Assembly (NCBI GenBank): GCA_024639905.1
Contig: JAHEGE010000003.1
Coordinates: 1 to 64,000 of the forward strand
Length of the DNA: 64,000 nt
From: Gammaproteobacteria bacterium
GTDB taxonomy: Bacteria > Pseudomonadota > Gammaproteobacteria > Pseudomonadales > Pseudohongiellaceae
Direction: 5' to 3'
Positions within the stretch are counted from its first letter, which is position 1; every line of letters begins with the position of its first letter. This document shows positions 7,284-51,416 of this stretch, one piece after another. A program made the position numbers and the translations under genes. The notes under the pieces were generated by a model. It was not told the DNA's origin, ran no database searches, and worked only from the letters and a program-made list of their open reading frames with translations.

Positions 7284-9557
7284 ATGCTCGATCAACTTCG
7301 TAGCATCGTCCAAGAGGTCAACGCCGCCCGCGATCTGCAGTCGGCGCTGAATCTTATCGTCTCGCGTGTGCGCACTGCATTGAATACACAGGTGTGCTCG
7401 ATCTACCTTTTCGATGCCAATATGAACAGCCACGTGCTGATGGCCTCCGAAGGGTTGAAGGCAGAGTCGGTTGGCCGCGTGAGCCTGCAAACTGGCGAGG
7501 GACTCGTCGGCCTGGTCGCTAAACATGCCGAGCCGATTAACCTGAGCGATGCGTCCAAGCATCCCAGCTATTTTTACCTGCAAGATACCGGCGAGGAAGA
7601 GTTTAATTCCTTCCTTGGCGTGCCGATCATCCATCATCGTGCGGTGCTCGGCGTCCTAGTGGTACAGCAACGCGAGCGCCGCCGGTTCGACGAAGGCGAA
7701 GAGGCTTTCCTCATTACGCTGTCGGCCCAGCTGTCAGCGGTCATTGCTCTGGCCGAGGCGACAGGGGCAATTCAGGGCCTAAGCCCGTCGGGGCAGAAGG
7801 CCGAAGATACGGTATTTCCCGGCGTTTCAGGATCCTCGGGAGTAGCCATCGGTCGCGCCGTAGTGGTCTTTCCGCACGCCGACCTTAGTCAAATTCCCCA
7901 ACGGCCAGCGAAAGATATCGACCACGAGGTCAGCTTTTTCAAAAGCTGTATAGATGCGGTGCGCCGCGATATTAATGACTTGTACGAGAAGCTCGCAGGG
8001 CATGTGGCCGAGGAAGAACGCCAACTGTTTAATGTGTACGCTCGCATGCTCGACGATAACGCGCTCGGTAACGAGGTGGTGGCACGTATCCGCGAGGGTA
8101 TTTGGGCGCAGGGTGCGCTCGCCCACGTCGCGAATGAGCATGTGCGTACCTTCGAGGCAATGAGCGATGCGTACTTGCGAGAACGTGCGGTTGATATTAA
8201 GGATCTGTGCAGCCGCGTCTTATTCTATCTGCAAGAGCGCGAGCCGGTGCAGATCGAATACCAAGACAACACGATATTGGTCAGCGAAGAACTCACGCCA
8301 TCTATGCTCGCGGAGGCACCTAAAGACAAACTCAAGGGTTTGATTTCGATTAAGGGGTCGGGCAACTCGCACGTCGCTATTCTTGCGCGCACTATGGGCA
8401 TACCGACCGTCATGGGCGCTGTCGATCTACCCTTCGCGCAGTTGGAAGGCCGCAGCCTCGTCGTCGATGGTTATCGCGGCGAGGTGATTACGAGTCCGTC
8501 GAAGGCGCTTCGCGCACGCTACCGTGAAGTCATTAAGGAACAAGATCGTCTCGTCGCCGGACTTGAGGTCATTAAGGACGAGCCCTGCGAGACTACCGAC
8601 GGTCATCGCGTGCAGCTATGGGTGAACACGGGACTCATGTCTGATGTCATGCAGTCGCTTGATCAGGGCGCCGAGGGGATTGGGCTATTCAGGACGGAGG
8701 TGCCGTTTCTTCTTAGCGAGCGCTTCCCGAGCGAACAGGAACAGGCACAGATCTACCGCGAGCAGCTCGCGGCGTTCGCGCCGAAAATCGTCACTATGCG
8801 GACGCTAGACGTCGGCGGAGATAAGTCGCTGTCTTATTTTCCTATCGAGGAAGCGAACCCCTTCTTAGGCTGGCGCGGCATCCGGGTGACGCTAGATCAT
8901 CCTGAAATTTTTATGGCCCAGGTGCGCGCCATGCTGCGTGCGAGTGTCGGGCTGAATAATCTACAGATCATGTTGCCGATGATTAGCAATGTGGGTGAGG
9001 TTGAGAAGGCACAGCAGCTCATCAAGAAGGCTTATCGCGAGCTCGTGCAAGAGGGCGTGGAGGTGCAGTACCCACCGGTCGGGGTGATGATTGAGTTGCC
9101 AGCCGCGGTGTATCAGACCGCGACACTTGCACGCATGGTCGACTTCGTCTCGGTGGGCAGTAACGATCTGACCCAGTATCTGCTGGCGGTCGATCGCAAT
9201 AATCCGCGCGTGGCGAATCTCTATTCGGCATTCCACCCAGCTGTCATCGCCGCGCTTAAGCAGGTGGTGAAGCTGGCGAAAGGCGAGGGCAAGCCGGTGA
9301 GTATCTGCGGCGAGATGGCGGGGGATCCAGGCGCTGCTTTGCTGCTCATGGCGATGGGCTTCGATGTGCTGTCGATGAATGCCTCAACTTTGCTCAAGGT
9401 GAAGTCGGTGGTGCGCAGCGTGTCGATGGAAGCCGCGAAAGACTTGCTCGAGCAGGTTAGCGAACTCGACGATGCCCAGACGATCCGCAGCGCTATCGAC
9501 ATGGCGCTCTATAACGCCGGCGTCGATCGGCTGCTGCGTACGTCGCGAACTCACTAA
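7284..9557 (+). CDS. ptsP: PtsP, enzyme I of the nitrogen phosphotransferase system
   Basis: At 757 residues it is full length. A GAF domain (about 1-165) comes first, which senses glutamine/2-oxoglutarate in studied homologues. Then come the enzyme I N-terminal domain (180-320), the swivelling domain with the phosphorylated His363 in GSGNSHVAILARTMG, and the PEP-binding barrel with GIGLFRTEVPFL, MLPMISN, VGSNDLTQYLLAVDR and ISICGEM-type motifs. It moves phosphate from phosphoenolpyruvate to NPr and on to EIIA-Ntr, controlling potassium, nitrogen and envelope physiology. Neither ptsN nor ptsO lies in the window. AGGAG precedes the ATG. Confidence 0.96.
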   Translation: MLDQLRSIVQEVNAARDLQSALNLIVSRVRTALNTQVCSIYLFDANMNSHVLMASEGLKAESVGRVSLQTGEGLVGLVAKHAEPINLSDASKHPSYFYLQDTGEEEFNSFLGVPIIHHRAVLGVLVVQQRERRRFDEGEEAFLITLSAQLSAVIALAEATGAIQGLSPSGQKAEDTVFPGVSGSSGVAIGRAVVVFPHADLSQIPQRPAKDIDHEVSFFKSCIDAVRRDINDLYEKLAGHVAEEERQLFNVYARMLDDNALGNEVVARIREGIWAQGALAHVANEHVRTFEAMSDAYLRERAVDIKDLCSRVLFYLQEREPVQIEYQDNTILVSEELTPSMLAEAPKDKLKGLISIKGSGNSHVAILARTMGIPTVMGAVDLPFAQLEGRSLVVDGYRGEVITSPSKALRARYREVIKEQDRLVAGLEVIKDEPCETTDGHRVQLWVNTGLMSDVMQSLDQGAEGIGLFRTEVPFLLSERFPSEQEQAQIYREQLAAFAPKIVTMRTLDVGGDKSLSYFPIEEANPFLGWRGIRVTLDHPEIFMAQVRAMLRASVGLNNLQIMLPMISNVGEVEKAQQLIKKAYRELVQEGVEVQYPPVGVMIELPAAVYQTATLARMVDFVSVGSNDLTQYLLAVDRNNPRVANLYSAFHPAVIAALKQVVKLAKGEGKPVSICGEMAGDPGAALLLMAMGFDVLSMNASTLLKVKSVVRSVSMEAAKDLLEQVSELDDAQTIRSAIDMALYNAGVDRLLRTSRTH

Positions 9558-9571
9558 TTTACAGGTCGCGG

Positions 9572-10168
9572 TTAGCTAGCTCGATGCGCCAGCTGCGCTC
9601 GCATCGCGGCCGCCAAAGCGTGGTCGCCGCGCGACTCGAGCTCGCTACAAACAGATTCTACGTCACTCACAGACCTATTCTGGCTGAGTTTATACTTCGC
9701 TTGAATCTCGATGACTGTGATTTCGATACCGGCAATCGCATTCAGCATCGCGTCCGGATAAGTCGGCAGCCAAGAGTTCGCTTGCTGCGCTTCATAGTAG
9801 TCGCTCAGCGTTGATACCAATGCAGCGAGTCTTGGTGCATCGTCAAAACGCTTGGCGACGCCGTAGAGATGTACCGCTTGATAATTCCAGGTAGGCACGC
9901 CGGGTTTGTGATACCAGTTCGGGCTTATATAGCCATGAGGGCCTTCTAAGGTAACCAAGACCTCCTGGCCGTCACAAGCCTCGAGCTGCGGGTTAATCCG
10001 CGCTAGGTGGCAGAGCAGCTTCCCCGCGTCTGCGTCATAATGGAAGGGCGTGTAGCTGCTACAGATTCTCCCCGCCGTGGTAGGTAATAGTTGACCGAAG
10101 CCATGCCCTCGAATGAACGCTGAGATCTCTTCTTTGTCGTCGATGGCAAAATGGGCAGGTGTATACAT
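9572..10168 (-). CDS. PaiB-like FMN-binding negative transcriptional regulator family protein
   Basis: The 198 residues begin MYTPAHFAIDDKEEISAFI and contain PHGYISPNWYHKPGVPTWNYQAVHLYG, the hallmark of the PaiB/FMN-binding split-barrel family. Bacillus PaiB is described as a negative regulator of sporulation and protease genes. In gammaproteobacteria the family is mostly uncharacterised, and FMN or heme binding has been proposed. No helix-turn-helix is visible, so direct DNA binding is doubtful. It lies 26 bp downstream of the NRDE gene on the same strand, probably cotranscribed. Confidence 0.85.
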   Translation of the reverse strand: MYTPAHFAIDDKEEISAFIRGHGFGQLLPTTAGRICSSYTPFHYDADAGKLLCHLARINPQLEACDGQEVLVTLEGPHGYISPNWYHKPGVPTWNYQAVHLYGVAKRFDDAPRLAALVSTLSDYYEAQQANSWLPTYPDAMLNAIAGIEITVIEIQAKYKLSQNRSVSDVESVCSELESRGDHALAAAMRAQLAHRAS

Positions 10169-46294: not shown

Positions 46295-46327
46295 ATTCAG
46301 GTATTCTTAAGGTTCACAGCCTATCAT
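46295..46327 (+). promoter_or_regulatory. PmrA-box-like operator and -10 of the PmrAB-like operon
   Basis: Half-site ATTCAG (46295-46300), five bases, then CTTAAG (46306-46311) resembles the direct-repeat PmrA box (CTTAAG/YTTAAK with 5-base spacing). TATCAT at 46322-46327 is a good -10; the box would overlap the -35 position, as expected for an activator of this family. The same arrangement recurs ahead of eptA. Confidence 0.6.
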
Positions 46328-46402
46328 ACCCATCCATCTGCTATCGTCCTTCGTCGCCATTCTTTACGCCTTAACCCACGAGTTCTGAACAGGTTGAACG
46401 GT

Positions 46403-47068
46403 ATGAAACTCCTCATTATAGAAGACTCCGAGCGCCTGCGTCGGAGCCTCGTTAAAGGATTTTCCAATCTAGGCTTCGCGATAGATAGTAGTGGAGACGG
46501 CAAAGAAGGACTCGGCTTCGGGATGAGCTTCGCCTACGACGCGATTATCCTCGATCTTATGTTGCCGTCGATGGATGGTCTCGAGGTCCTGCGCCGGCTG
46601 CGTGACGCTCGCAGTGCAACCAATATACTCATCCTCACGGCTAAAGATGCTTACGAAGATCGCATCAAGGGACTTAACCTCGGCGCGGATGATTACCTGT
46701 GCAAGCCCTTCTCGTTCGAAGAATTACATGCTCGCGTGCTGACGCTGATCCGGCGATCGCATCGGCTTCAGTCTAACGTAGTGACTTTCGGCAGTGTAAA
46801 GCTCCAGCTAGACCTGAAGCAGGTTTCCATCGATGATGAGCGCATCGGCCTAACGCCGCTAGAATACTCAATCGTGGAACAGCTTGCGCTGCAGCGCGGC
46901 AAGGTGGTTTCAGCAGAGACGCTGCTCGATCGCTTATACGATAGCAGTGCCCAGTCGAGCCGTAATGCGCTCGAAGCACATATCTCCGCACTACGGAAAA
47001 AATTACGCGAGGCGGGGGTCGAAGGGCTGGTCGAGACACGGCGCGGCTTCGGCTATGTGATCGCGTAG
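46403..47068 (+). CDS. OmpR-family response regulator, PmrA/QseB-like
   Basis: The 221-residue protein starts MKLLIIEDSERLRRSLVKGF. It has phosphoacceptor Asp51 in IILDLMLPSMDGLEVLRRLR and the conserved lysine in YLCKPFSFEELHARV. The winged-helix domain has LTPLEYSIVEQLALQRGKVVSAETLLDRLYD and ends VETRRGFGYVIA. ATG 46403 has AGG nine bases upstream; a TTG at 46394 would add three residues. Linkage to a kinase, dgkA and eptA, plus its own PmrA-box-like promoter, suggests control of lipid A modification and autoregulation. Confidence 0.88.
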   Translation: MKLLIIEDSERLRRSLVKGFSNLGFAIDSSGDGKEGLGFGMSFAYDAIILDLMLPSMDGLEVLRRLRDARSATNILILTAKDAYEDRIKGLNLGADDYLCKPFSFEELHARVLTLIRRSHRLQSNVVTFGSVKLQLDLKQVSIDDERIGLTPLEYSIVEQLALQRGKVVSAETLLDRLYDSSAQSSRNALEAHISALRKKLREAGVEGLVETRRGFGYVIA

Positions 47069-47100
47069 CTACTGGCGCACTGACGAGAAAAGGATGCACT

Positions 47101-48516
47101 ATGGCAGCAGTAAGCATTCGTCGGCAGCTTCTTAGCCACGCGCTGACGAGTACCATCGCGATCCTTTTGCTCGTGGGATTGGTGGTGCAGCATCTCGTAG
47201 GAAATTGGTTGCGCGCCGAATTCGATGAGATGATGCTTACCAAAGCGCAGGTAATGGTGACGCTCTTCGAAGAGGACACCTTCGGCATGGAGTTCGAGTT
47301 TGCCGATGAAGTGATGCCTGAATTCGCGCGCGACCAGACCCCCGAGTACTACCAGTTCCGAACAACCGAGGGTGAGAATTTCGAACGCTCGGAACGCTTA
47401 AAGGGCAGCGACCTGCCATTCCTGCCGGATACTACGCCCGTTAGCCAGTTCCTCGATATCGAGTTACCAGACGGCAGGGCTGGCCGTCTTCTGCAGCTCA
47501 CGTTTGTGCCCCAGCTTGAGCTGGAGCTACGCACTCCGGCTAAGCGCATAAGTCAGTATGTCATGGTGATGGGGCTCGCGCGGGAGAGAGCAAGCCTCGA
47601 TCGACGACTACTCGTGTTGAACCTCGGTATCCTCGCAGTCGGCGCGGCAGTCCTCGTGAGTGTCTTCTTCGCTCTCAATTGGGTGATTGGGCGTGGCCTG
47701 CGGCCACTCGAGGAAGTGAAGCTGGGATTGCTTGAACTGGACAGCAACGACCAGAGCCAACGACTGAATGTTGATGTCCCGCTGCTAGACCTCGAGGAAA
47801 TCGTTGCCGCGCTAAATGATTTACTCGCGCGCATTGAGGAGAGCTTCGCGCGCGAGAAGCGGTTCAGCGTGGGAGCGGCGCACGAGCTACGCACGCCAAT
47901 CGCCGAGCTTATGAGCACGAGCGAAGTCTTTCAGCGGTGGCCTAATGCGGATGAGGCGCCGCAGTTCGCTGCCGATGTGCTGGCATCCGCGCGGCGTATG
48001 CAGTTTATCGTCGACAGCTTGGCGCAGCTCGCCCGCGGGCGCTTGCAGCCTTATGAACCGGCGCTTGAGGGATCGCAGCTAGTTTTAGCGAGCCTCGTCG
48101 ATGCGGCTTTCGCTCAGCACGCGGAGACTGCAAGGCAGCGAGAACTGACGAGGGCTGTGCGTGGTCAGCTCGATATTCAGGTTTGGTCTTCGGCGCTCGA
48201 TGTGAGCTTAATATTGAGCAACGTGATCGGCAACGCGATAGCACACGCCGACGCTGGCAGCGAAATTGTGGTGGAATTTGGTGCCGGGTTAATCGCCGTG
48301 AGCAACAAAGCGAGCGGTTTGCAGCCGGAAGATTTGCCTAGGCTATTCGAGAGCCTGTGGCGCAAGGATGAGGCCCGCTCGTCTGAGTTTCATGTGGGAC
48401 TTGGGCTCGCAATAGTTAACGCCTATGCCGACAGGTTAGGCATACAGCTTAGCGTAGAGCTCAGCCAAGGATGGTTTACTTTACGCATCCATTTCCCTGC
48501 AGACGACGAATCGTAA
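47101..48516 (+). CDS. Sensor histidine kinase, PmrB/QseC-like
   Basis: A 471-residue kinase with a first membrane helix (about 12-32), a periplasmic loop of about 135 residues, and a second helix (about 170-195). A HAMP-like linker, His261 in GAAHELRTPIAEL, and an ATPase domain with NVIGNAIAHA and VGLGLAIVNAYA follow. The loop is strikingly acidic near 56-76 (EEDT, EFEFADEV, PEF), reminiscent of the glutamate-rich iron-sensing loop of PmrB, although an exact ExxE motif is not clear. AAGGA precedes the ATG; it follows the regulator by 32 bp. Confidence 0.88.
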   Translation: MAAVSIRRQLLSHALTSTIAILLLVGLVVQHLVGNWLRAEFDEMMLTKAQVMVTLFEEDTFGMEFEFADEVMPEFARDQTPEYYQFRTTEGENFERSERLKGSDLPFLPDTTPVSQFLDIELPDGRAGRLLQLTFVPQLELELRTPAKRISQYVMVMGLARERASLDRRLLVLNLGILAVGAAVLVSVFFALNWVIGRGLRPLEEVKLGLLELDSNDQSQRLNVDVPLLDLEEIVAALNDLLARIEESFAREKRFSVGAAHELRTPIAELMSTSEVFQRWPNADEAPQFAADVLASARRMQFIVDSLAQLARGRLQPYEPALEGSQLVLASLVDAAFAQHAETARQRELTRAVRGQLDIQVWSSALDVSLILSNVIGNAIAHADAGSEIVVEFGAGLIAVSNKASGLQPEDLPRLFESLWRKDEARSSEFHVGLGLAIVNAYADRLGIQLSVELSQGWFTLRIHFPADDES

Positions 48517-48553
48517 GATCGGAGTAGGTCGCTAGAACAAAAAGGAAGTTTCC

Positions 48554-49012
48554 ATGACAAACTCGCAAGATGGCGCGCCAGACGGTGCCGCAGGCAGTGT
48601 AATAGGCAGCGCAATAGACAGCTCAATAGATAAGCCAGTGGAATCTGCGCGACAGGTGCCGCCCAAAAAAGTGGGACTCGCCCGGCTATGGGCGGCGACC
48701 CTCTATAGCGCGGATGGTTTGCGCGCCTGTTTCCGCAGCGAAGAGGCGTTCCGAATCGAGTCAATCCTCGCGTTGGTGTTAGCGCCTGTCGCTTTTTTGT
48801 TAGGCAAGTCTCCGCTAGAGGTAGCGGTGCTGTTGTTTGCCCTCGTGCTGGTGCTATTAGTCGAGTTATTGAACAGCGCCATCGAGGCCGTTGTCGATCG
48901 AGTTGGCCTCGAATATCACGCGTTATCGAAAGTAGCAAAGGACATCGGCTCGGCCGCGGTGCTAATTAGTCTACTTTTCTTTGTTGTGGTATGGGCGTTG
49001 CTGCTCCTCTAG
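48554..49012 (+). CDS. dgkA: Diacylglycerol kinase
   Basis: A 152-residue small integral membrane kinase that phosphorylates diacylglycerol to phosphatidic acid. The core (about 35-152) has three membrane helices and the signature EAFRIESILALVLAPVAFLL, and LVELLNSAIEAVVDRVG with the catalytic glutamate and metal-binding Glu-Asn. An N-terminal polar extension of about 35 residues, partly built from 12-bp repeats, is absent from E. coli DgkA. It follows the kinase gene by 37 bp and probably belongs to its operon, a sensible partner for EptA, which releases diacylglycerol. Its stop overlaps that of the PAP2 gene. Confidence 0.93.
   Translation: MTNSQDGAPDGAAGSVIGSAIDSSIDKPVESARQVPPKKVGLARLWAATLYSADGLRACFRSEEAFRIESILALVLAPVAFLLGKSPLEVAVLLFALVLVLLVELLNSAIEAVVDRVGLEYHALSKVAKDIGSAAVLISLLFFVVVWALLLL
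48601..48634 (+). repeat. 12-bp tandem repeat in the dgkA N-terminal extension
   Basis: AATAGGCAGCGC (48601-48612), AATAGACAGCTC (48613-48624) and a partial third copy AATAGATAAG follow head to tail and encode IGSAIDSSID. The extension lies ahead of the first membrane helix and is not part of the conserved enzyme. Confidence 0.75.
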
Positions 49013-49728
49013 GGGGAGCGCGAGGGGATCACCCTGTCGAGCACTAAGATGACAAGCATGGCGAGGAGCATGCTCACGACAGTGTGTCCAAGGAAGTGAT
49101 CGCCAATCCCCATTTTGTAAAAACCTACTACCCACCCTAATCCACAGGCGGCACTAGCAATCGTCAGCTGTCTACGGCCGCTGCCTGCTAGCAGAGCCAA
49201 CGCCATGAGTGCAAAACCGCCGCTGGCATGCCCCGCGGGATAGCAGCGAATGCGTTCAACTTGAATGAAGTCGCTAGGGTAAGCGGTGAAGAGCGTCACA
49301 TGCGGGTAGTTGCCGCCGTAAAGTGCAAGGTCTTTTGGGCAGGGTATGTTGGTGACTGCCTTAAGGCCATTCGCGACGAGAGGGATAAGCACGAGGGCGG
49401 CGGCGACTACTAATATTTCGTGACGCCGTGACCCGATTGGCGGCCAGCTGGGATTGCCTGCAGCGACGCCAAGTACAATGAGCGTGAGCGCGATATAAAT
49501 CTGCTTAATGCCGTCGTAGAGCAGTCGTTTTAGCCAGGCGGAGTCGCGGTCTATAAGCCACTTGTGGCCCTGGGACTCATACAAAAAATCCTGCACGACC
49601 AGATCGAGCGTGGTGAGCTCGAAAATCGCGACGCTCGTGATAAGGGCGATACACACACCAAGGATGAGTCGTGTGCTATGGCTTACCAAACAGGTCGGCC
49701 TCTGGGTCATACAGTGTCGTTGAGACAT
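49009..49728 (-). CDS. PAP2-family membrane phosphatase
   Basis: A membrane protein of up to 239 residues with about five hydrophobic segments. Motif 2 reads CYPAGHASGGFAL (PSGH variant) and motif 3 KMGIGDHFLGHT, with lysine in place of the usual arginine; motif 1 is weak (CPKDLALYGG). Related enzymes dephosphorylate lipid phosphates or transfer phosphate to lipid A (LpxE, LpxT types). Position directly downstream of eptA suggests lipid A or undecaprenyl/diacylglycerol phosphate chemistry. The start is uncertain: 49728 overlaps eptA by 53 bp, while ATG 49710 and TTG 49689 overlap less. Confidence 0.8.
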   Translation of the reverse strand: MSQRHCMTQRPTCLVSHSTRLILGVCIALITSVAIFELTTLDLVVQDFLYESQGHKWLIDRDSAWLKRLLYDGIKQIYIALTLIVLGVAAGNPSWPPIGSRRHEILVVAAALVLIPLVANGLKAVTNIPCPKDLALYGGNYPHVTLFTAYPSDFIQVERIRCYPAGHASGGFALMALALLAGSGRRQLTIASAACGLGWVVGFYKMGIGDHFLGHTVVSMLLAMLVILVLDRVIPSRSP

Positions 49729-51355
49729 CGAACAAACCCAGCAGCGTATGGCTAACGCTGTCGTGGGTTGCTTGAGTGTGGCGCCGCGAGTTGATGCGCT
49801 CGACTAATTCGTCATGCTGCGGCCAATTCGCGCCAAACCAAGTGATGAGCGGTACCCGTTTCTGGATATCGGGGGCGAAAGCGTAGGGCAGCCCGTGAAG
49901 GTACAAATTTCCTTCGCCGAGGGATTCGCCGTGGTCACCGATATAGACCATCGCTGTGTCGAACTCGTCTTCGACGGTCGCTAGCCAGTCTATCGTCGAG
50001 GCAAGGAAATAATCCGTATAAAGGACGGCATTATCGTACGCGTTTACGATTTCCTCGCGAGAGCAAGACTCCAGCTGGTTGGTTCTGCACGTCGGAGTGA
50101 AACGCTCGAACTCTGAGGGATAGCGTTTGTAGTAGGCAGGTCCGTGATTTCCCATTGCGTGCATCACGATCAATAAATCGCCGTCGGGTCGTTGCTGTAC
50201 ATAGTTGGCGAGACCCGCTGTCATGCCGATGTCGCGGCACTCGATATCGCAGCGTGGGTTCACCTCGGGGTCTTTGAAATCGAAGTTCGGTAAGCGTGGT
50301 GCGACACCTTTCGAGTCTGAGTTGTTGTCGAACCAGGCGACTCTAACGCCGGTACGCTGTACTACGTCTAGCGCGTTGTCTGTGGCGAGCGCCTCCGCCT
50401 GCGAATAGTCGTCGTGGCCTAAAAACGAGAACATGCAGGGCACCGAAACCGCAGTCGAGGTGCCACAGGACCAGAGGTCGGTGAGACTTGAGACCCCCCG
50501 TGCGGCTAAGAGCGGGGTTGTGTCACGAGTATAGCCATTCAGCGCAAGATGATCCGAGCGAAGCGTCTCGCCAACAATCATCACGACGAGCCGGCGCCGT
50601 TCGCTGCGCGTTGTGCGCACAGCATCGAGGCCTATATGTTCGAAGGGGCGAGTCGCGCGCTCAAACAAGCCGCTCACGAGAGTAGCGGCCGAGTAAAAGG
50701 TATAGCTTGGATTGGCGTAGAAGCGGACGTCTTTGTGTTCGCGAAAAAATGAGGCGTAACTGCTGCCTTGGGATAGCAACAAAGCGGCAATCGCCGCAAG
50801 AAAGCTCGCGATAAAGCCGACTCGCCGCAGCGCCGCTTGCACTAACGGATAGCGTCGGGCGGGCCTGCGGGCAATGGGCACTCGAGCGATGAAGAGGCTC
50901 GGTAAGAGGCCCAAAATGACGCAGTACAACGCTTGCCAGAAGGACAGCAGGTCGAGAGCCTCTGCGCTGTCGGTTTGCAATAGATTATCCAGCATCACGT
51001 CATCGATGATGACATGGTAGGTGTCCATGAAGTACGCGGTGTTGGCAGACACCATCAGCGCTGCGATGAGCAGCGGCTTGAGTAGTGGGCCGATGCAGAC
51101 GAGCCCTAAGAGCAGCGCGGTCAGTGCTATGAGCACGAGCGTCGTAGAGACGATAAACACAAGGTTCATCGCCGTCAGTGGATAGATCGCGAGAAATTCG
51201 CTGAAGAAACGGTAGTTAGTAAACAGGGTCACGAATGCAGCAACCCAGAGTATCAGCGTAATCGGCGCTCGCGCCGTGGACACGCCGAGTGTGAGCGGCG
51301 CCTTAATGCTTGCGGATAGGCGGGCAAATCGCTGAGTGAGAAATGCGTCGGGCAT
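49676..51355 (-). CDS. eptA: Lipid A phosphoethanolamine transferase EptA
   Basis: The 559-residue protein has five membrane helices (about 1-205) and a periplasmic alkaline-phosphatase-like domain. MIVGETLRSDHLALNGY carries the metal-binding glutamate, and CGTSTAVSVPCMF the catalytic threonine (Thr301 by my count) and a conserved cysteine. YIGDHGESLGE and YLHGLPYA give the zinc-binding His-Asp residues. It adds phosphoethanolamine from phosphatidylethanolamine to lipid A, lowering polymyxin binding, and leaves diacylglycerol. Its promoter contains the same CTTAAG operator as the PmrA-like gene. Confidence 0.94.
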   Translation of the reverse strand: MPDAFLTQRFARLSASIKAPLTLGVSTARAPITLILWVAAFVTLFTNYRFFSEFLAIYPLTAMNLVFIVSTTLVLIALTALLLGLVCIGPLLKPLLIAALMVSANTAYFMDTYHVIIDDVMLDNLLQTDSAEALDLLSFWQALYCVILGLLPSLFIARVPIARRPARRYPLVQAALRRVGFIASFLAAIAALLLSQGSSYASFFREHKDVRFYANPSYTFYSAATLVSGLFERATRPFEHIGLDAVRTTRSERRRLVVMIVGETLRSDHLALNGYTRDTTPLLAARGVSSLTDLWSCGTSTAVSVPCMFSFLGHDDYSQAEALATDNALDVVQRTGVRVAWFDNNSDSKGVAPRLPNFDFKDPEVNPRCDIECRDIGMTAGLANYVQQRPDGDLLIVMHAMGNHGPAYYKRYPSEFERFTPTCRTNQLESCSREEIVNAYDNAVLYTDYFLASTIDWLATVEDEFDTAMVYIGDHGESLGEGNLYLHGLPYAFAPDIQKRVPLITWFGANWPQHDELVERINSRRHTQATHDSVSHTLLGLFDVSTTLYDPEADLFGKP

Positions 51356-51383
51356 GCACTGCGCTCTCTTTGAATGAGGGTGC

Positions 51384-51416
51384 AGTGTAGGAGGTGAATC
51401 TTAAGGATGACTGACA
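51384..51416 (-). promoter_or_regulatory. PmrA-box-like operator and -10 of eptA
   Basis: On the reverse strand TGTCAG (51416-51411), five bases, then CTTAAG (51405-51400), followed by ATTCAC and a TACACT -10 (51389-51384). Spacing from CTTAAG to the -10 is 10 bases, identical to the operator at 46295-46327, and the flanking bases TCAG, TTCAC and CCTA are shared. The predicted leader to the ATG at 51355 is about 22 bases and contains AGAGAG. Confidence 0.62.

Follow-up and report, generated by a model that had tools for sequence, protein, structure and literature searches.

Two PmrA-type operator sites at the promoters of a response regulator operon and of eptA in a Pseudohongiellaceae genome

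We analyzed the first 64,000 nucleotides of contig JAHEGE010000003.1 (GenBank assembly GCA_024639905.1, forward strand; here called the window), which comes from a gammaproteobacterium of the order Pseudomonadales, family Pseudohongiellaceae. Two promoters in the window share an operator. One precedes the gene for an OmpR-family response regulator (the linked regulator), which is followed by a sensor kinase gene and the diacylglycerol kinase gene dgkA; the other precedes eptA, encoding phosphoethanolamine-lipid A transferase, and a gene for a PAP2-family lipid phosphatase. By their sequence, both sites belong to the class-II operators of PmrA type; the downstream CTTAAG is perfect and the upstream half-site (TTCAG or GTCAG) is decayed. 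We consider it probable that they are bound, most likely by the linked regulator, and jointly raise expression of both units. Coordinated control of eptA-PAP2 and regulator-kinase-dgkA is very likely, and direct control with autoregulation by the linked regulator is likely. The design is a known one, of which these two promoters are a new example. The parts of the two sites, read directly from the sequence, are as follows; box scores refer to a 13-position consensus described below.

46295-46300, plus strand: ATTCAG, upstream half-site of the regulator promoter, a degenerate NTTAAG 11 base pairs (bp) before CTTAAG
Plus strand, between ATTCAG and CTTAAG: GTATT, spacer of the regulator promoter
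46306-46311, plus strand: CTTAAG, downstream half-site of the regulator promoter (whole box 12/13)
Plus strand, between CTTAAG and the -10 element: GTTCACAGCC
46322-46327, plus strand: TATCAT, -10 element of the regulator promoter, 10 bp past the operator
51416-51411, minus strand: TGTCAG, upstream half-site of the eptA promoter, a degenerate NTTAAG 11 bp before CTTAAG
Minus strand, between TGTCAG and CTTAAG: TCATC, spacer of the eptA promoter
51405-51400, minus strand: CTTAAG, downstream half-site of the eptA promoter (whole box 11/13)
Minus strand, between CTTAAG and the -10 element: ATTCACCTCC
51389-51384, minus strand: TACACT, -10 element of the eptA promoter, 10 bp past the operator

A sequence-only reading of the window had described a shared operator at these coordinates, about 5 kb apart on opposite strands, and direct inspection bears this out: exactly 10 bases separate the end of CTTAAG from the -10 element at both promoters. 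The downstream hexamer is perfect at both, and the upstream pentamer agrees with TTAAG at 4/5 positions (regulator) and 3/5 (eptA). At spacers of 15 to 19 bp, the best -35 element matches at most 2/6 positions in the regulator promoter and at most 3/6 in the eptA promoter, as expected for activator-dependent promoters.

The pattern is confined to these two promoters in this genome (2,668,146 bases in 26 contigs, listed as 100% complete). The long pattern TCAG-N5-CTTAAGRTTCAC-N2-CCTA, with up to three mismatches allowed, matches the window twice and none of 100 shuffles; genome-wide it returns the same two matches only (reversed control, 0) and is thus not spread over many unrelated promoters. 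The shorter TNAG-N5-CTTAAG-N10-TANNNT without mismatch likewise occurs only at these sites. CTTAAG alone is found at chance frequency (10 observed versus 9.9 expected), and the signal is therefore carried by the long pattern. We also scored the window against TTAAG-N6-TTAAG-N10-TANNNT, a consensus derived from sites in other bacteria (13 scored positions; the box), and only these two sites reach at least 11/13.

Looser searches gave less. With one mismatch, TNAG-N5-CTTAAG-N10-TANNNT occurs at five further places in this genome; one (L066) is the operon promoter of a second PmrA-like regulator, RR2, and none of the other four (L063, L064, L065, and L067) precedes a same-strand open reading frame of at least 130 amino acids. 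A relaxed TTNAG-N6-TTAAG scan with at most one mismatch was uninformative (279 genome matches versus 380 for the reversed control). Across 194 genomes of the order, exact TCAG-N5-CTTAAG-N10-TANNNT occurs at 13 places in 11 genomes (reversed control, 10), and this genome alone has two matches close together on one contig. Elsewhere in the order, the long pattern with one mismatch has four matches, none before lipid A genes as judged from open reading frames without family search; one, in genome G163, precedes a thermostable-hemolysin operon.

eptA is an established target of enterobacterial PmrA, and the box recurs before it in other genomes. Among 390 genomes of the order, 67 have an EptA match at an E value of 1e-90 or below. 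We assembled 63 loci of eptA relatives (40 genome stretches, 19 from named records, and 4 further, two of the last four being second copies of a locus) and scored 53 within 250 bp upstream; the other 10 lacked either a recognizable start codon ahead of the match or enough sequence. A score of at least 12/13 was reached at 18/53 loci (16/51 distinct), compared with 6 of 2,120 control stretches and 0/53 for the reversed motif.

A same-genus genome (G337) allows a comparison of both promoters. Its EptA is 60-63% identical and the flanking gene order is kept, and the regulator-kinase pair is absent from the corresponding place. Its dgkA promoter reads TTTAAG-N5-CTTAAG-N10-TATCCT and its eptA promoter CTTAAG-N5-CTTAAT-N10-TATCCT. 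The window regulator operator and the G337 dgkA operator agree at 14/16 bases including the spacer (counted by eye on the alignment), with ATTCAG aligned to TTTAAG, and are therefore most likely the same promoter element. In the other same-genus match, G009, the contig ends inside eptA and its promoter could not be read. In a further genome, G326, TCAG-N5-CTTAAG-N10-TAATCT stands upstream of a transposase open reading frame (DDE_3; L190:11316-12341) that precedes eptA, and this site may once have belonged to eptA.

The operator is of a well-described kind. In published accounts the PmrA box is given as (C/T)TTAA(G/T)-N5-(C/T)TTAA(G/T), head-to-tail hexamers (PMC10729948; PMC3973317), and in Acinetobacter baumannii as TTTAAG-N5-TTTAAG at pmrC and naxD (PMC10927774). 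Like the enterobacterial PmrA (BasR) box, which consists of two NTTAAK hexamers, the window sites have two head-to-tail half-sites and a 5-bp spacer, with a perfect hexamer downstream and a degenerate one upstream. They resemble the A. baumannii box in repeat, spacing, and an eptA-type target, but their upstream repeat is TTCAG/GTCAG. The Pseudomonas aeruginosa BqsR operator is described as TTAAG-N6-TTAAG with an essential 6-bp spacer and its downstream repeat over the -35 region (PMC4682146); repeat and spacer are as here, a likeness between the operators.

The sequence-only reading had likened both sites to the CTTAAGGTTCAC core of the enteric pmrC promoter. In a 5-kb stretch of Escherichia coli K-12, CTTAAGGTTCACTTAAT, a string that also appears in a published primer table (PMC8004244), occurs once, upstream of pmrR, with CATACT 10 bp further along; CTTAAGGTTCAC is found before pmrR, and it was not found in the approximately 140 bp read before E. 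coli eptA. As in the window, the downstream hexamer at pmrR ends 10 bp before the -10 element (CATACT), which is the class-II position. The register differs, however: the E. coli site has CTTAAG as its upstream hexamer and GTTCA as its spacer, whereas the window CTTAAG is the downstream hexamer, and GTTCAC follows it ahead of the -10 element. Because the window CTTAAG ends 10 bp before the -10 element, it holds the place of the downstream hexamer; the proposed likeness thus concerns the right kind of operator but is out of register. A PmrA-box-type assignment is supported, with the second half-site now placed at TTCAG/GTCAG, 11 bp upstream of CTTAAG.

Two other systems resemble this one in their targets. 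CarRS of Vibrio vulnificus is likewise a two-component system, and is reported to bind and activate an eptA/dgkA operon (dgkA-eptA-mdoB) and its own operon (PMC10433830), but the CarR consensus, GACA-N6-TACA, is a different operator. Pseudomonas ColRS is reported to control eptA (PMC9952513) and dgkA (PMC2689224), but ColR has a T-tract consensus, (T/C)(T/C)NA(C/G)NN(T/C)TTTTT(C/G)AC. On these published consensus sequences we rejected CarR and ColR operators as the identity of the window sites. A literature search on eptA/dgkA/PAP2, the PmrA box, and BqsR/QseB pointed to related systems (CarRS, ColRS, and BqsRS) and, among the matches listed, to no description of this one, with subscription journals mostly outside its coverage.

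The linked regulator had been called PmrA-like. The PmrA model (NCBIfam PRK10643) is indeed its best match among 92 families, at 195.5 bits, which is below the curated cut-off of 330. In our best tree, which left out three long or distant rows (E. coli PhoB, the window's other regulator, and L042), it belongs to a five-member clade (support 97/95) outside a 19-row clade (99/99) that holds E. coli BasR and QseB. Topology tests did not reject placing both groups together, as sisters or one inside the other (approximately unbiased test, p-AU 0.333), or joining the linked clade to BasR (p-AU 0.098), so the two may be closely related; these less decisive tests replace earlier ones (p-AU 0.001 and 0.002) that were ill-posed, as they broke up tree groups. 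Close relatives are rare: at an E value of 1e-53 or below they occur in 5/390 genomes of the order, its own included. Of the four others, the regulators of G326 (52% identity) and G311 (44%) fall in the clade and those of G405 and G198 outside; a class-wide search of 340 genomes at 1e-62 or below added two, G745 and G554, both in the clade.

The box lies within 300 bp of the linked regulator's relative in G326 (13/13) and in G554 (12/13), and this recurrence in two of four clade relatives favors autoregulation. Around the G326 regulator stand a kinase counterpart (31% identical), dgkA, PAP2, and eptA; next to the G311 regulator is a kinase, on a contig of 5.4 kb that has none of the lipid genes. 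Of the earlier suggestion of direct, coordinated control, coordination is well supported, and direct action by the linked regulator with autoregulation is likely.

Several observations weigh against our preferred reading. Most scored eptA upstream regions (35/53) fall below 12, and when nine of the 10 loci left out were rescored from the match start, none reached 12 (scores 5 to 10). Both window sites have a decayed upstream half-site, which departs from TTAAG at one of five positions in one site and at two in the other. There is no box before the regulator relative in G745 (score 7; 8 before its first-placed kinase gene) or G311 (8). Taken alone, the two 150-bp upstream regions are only moderately rare in their similarity, as 22/31 identities were reached by 1 of 2,000 shuffled pairs and 8 of 2,982 random window pairs; the case therefore rests on the outside evidence. 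Finally, the genome encodes other PmrA/QseB-clade candidate regulators.

Chief among these is RR2. The genome has 11 regulator matches at an E value of 1e-10 or below, and we scored five with NCBIfam. By PmrA-model bits, RR2 (contig C22, 239.5) and not the linked regulator is closest to PmrA, followed by regulators on C26 (203.6), the linked regulator, C9 (191.2), and the window's other regulator (120.4); RR2 and the C26 regulator are also below the PmrA cut-off. RR2 falls in the BasR/QseB clade. Its operon encodes a thermostable-hemolysin-family protein, an AMP-binding enzyme, a haem-oxygenase-like enzyme, a short-chain dehydrogenase, a kinase, a cupredoxin, and an FTR1-type permease, which ties this PmrA-class two-component system to an iron-type permease. 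The operon promoter carries a full TTAAG-N6-TTAAG box (L175, C22:18000-34000; box at 9625, minus strand). NTTAA-N7-TTAAD-N10-TANNNT occurs once in this genome and its reversed control also gives one match; the support for the RR2 box is therefore that it recurs, with the T_hemolysin and FTR1 members, in three other genomes (G337, G009, and G163). In G009, dgkA closes the RR2-type iron-permease operon (L177:14156-14599), linking RR2 to the partner enzyme of EptA. With its own box and this dgkA linkage, RR2 could also act at the operators of eptA and dgkA.

It is possible, though we hold it unlikely, that both regulators bind the same sites, giving one regulon with two signals. All three boxes of the genome have an NTTAAG downstream half-site, and PmrA and QseB sites are both described at the E. 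coli arn promoter, QseB binding by gel shift (PMC10729948). The TTCAG/GTCAG of the window are unlike TTAAG, however, the half-site found at the operon of RR2 itself.

Slightly more doubtful is that RR2 is the main binder of real PmrA-type operators while the linked regulator acts weakly or elsewhere. G337 keeps both operators without the linked pair at that place, and a regulator other than the linked one must therefore read them, if they work; an orthologue of the linked regulator was not found in the G337 genome at an E value of 1e-53 or below, and RR2 is present there at 86% identity. The higher PmrA-model score of RR2 and the position of dgkA in G009 point the same way. Against this, the promoters of the linked regulator's counterparts in G326 and G554 carry the box, and the half-site change common to both window sites is not seen at the RR2 operon box. 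Nor does RR2-class presence (E value of 1e-55 or below) track the eptA box: it is found in 13/16 box-bearing and 13/18 box-lacking genomes (G326 being placed among the latter by the scores of two of its eptA loci) and does not discriminate between them.

A more speculative history, which we think improbable, is regulator exchange. A long-standing pair of PmrA/QseB-type operators at the dgkA and eptA promoters, whole in the same-genus relative without the linked regulator, would now be under a regulator of another lineage with Ser for His in its recognition helix, and the change of both upstream half-sites from TTAAG to TCAG would separate the operators from the resident PmrA-class regulator. 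In Klebsiella pneumoniae PmrA, His193 and His195 are described as base-contact residues and likely specificity determinants (PMC3973317); alignments show that the linked regulator keeps His193 and has Ser at 195. Ser195 also occurs outside the linked clade, in the PmrA-class regulator of G046 (L231), whose genome's eptA has a full box.

Last, a chance likeness of two unrelated promoters, to which the random-pair figure above would lend something, is very improbable, since the outside consensus with 10-bp spacing singles out just these two sites in the window and the corresponding G337 promoters carry the full box.

The preferred reading, joint activation most likely through the linked regulator, involves five genes.

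46403-47068, plus strand: OmpR-family response regulator (PmrA-like), 221 amino acids
47101-48516, plus strand: sensor histidine kinase (HisKA and HATPase_c), presumed partner of the regulator
48554-49012, plus strand: dgkA, diacylglycerol kinase (Pfam DAGK_prokar), 37 bp past the kinase gene
49009-49728, minus strand: PAP2-family lipid phosphatase; as the longest open reading frame, its start overlaps the end of eptA
49676-51355, minus strand: eptA, phosphoethanolamine-lipid A transferase

The EptA assignment has NCBIfam NF028537 at 597 bits, above its cut-off of 500, and dgkA is probably in the same operon as the regulator and kinase genes. We infer that at each operator, two head-to-tail NTTAAG hexamers in an 11-bp repeat with the downstream one in the -35 place 10 bp before the -10 element, a phosphorylated OmpR-family dimer, most likely the linked regulator, would bind and recruit RNA polymerase to these -35-poor promoters. 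One site would drive regulator-kinase-dgkA and the other eptA-PAP2. The sensor would then rise together with phosphoethanolamine transfer to lipid A and with recycling of the diacylglycerol that this transfer leaves, in a positive feedback.

With these promoters, control of lipid A remodelling through PmrA boxes would extend to this genus. Corresponding promoter pairs, one with the linked regulator and one without it, make it possible to test how an operator changes when its regulator does. Should the linked regulator be the only one to read the sites, one half-site would keep two related two-component systems apart in one cell.

Some smaller observations concern the kinase and the sites. A Pfam search of the kinase (47101-48516) found no sensor domain in its N-terminal part, which shares FADE-x2-PEF-x-RD-x2-PEY-x-Q and FERS with the G326 counterpart; its acidic residues might bind a cation. 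GTTCAC or ATTCAC is common to both window sites between operator and -10 element; the eptA promoter of G337 has ATTCAC again, one base farther along, and GTTCAC at the G163 hemolysin-operon promoter occupies the same place as at the window regulator promoter. The G326 genome has three eptA-like genes. In G009, CTTAAT/CTTAAG-like units recur every 11 bp in runs longer than two half-sites (L182 near 8227-8252; L183 near 2241-2299), and in G337 a full box (L180, near 2909, plus strand) precedes genes resembling a TolC/HlyD/RND efflux operon, the HlyD part assigned by family search.

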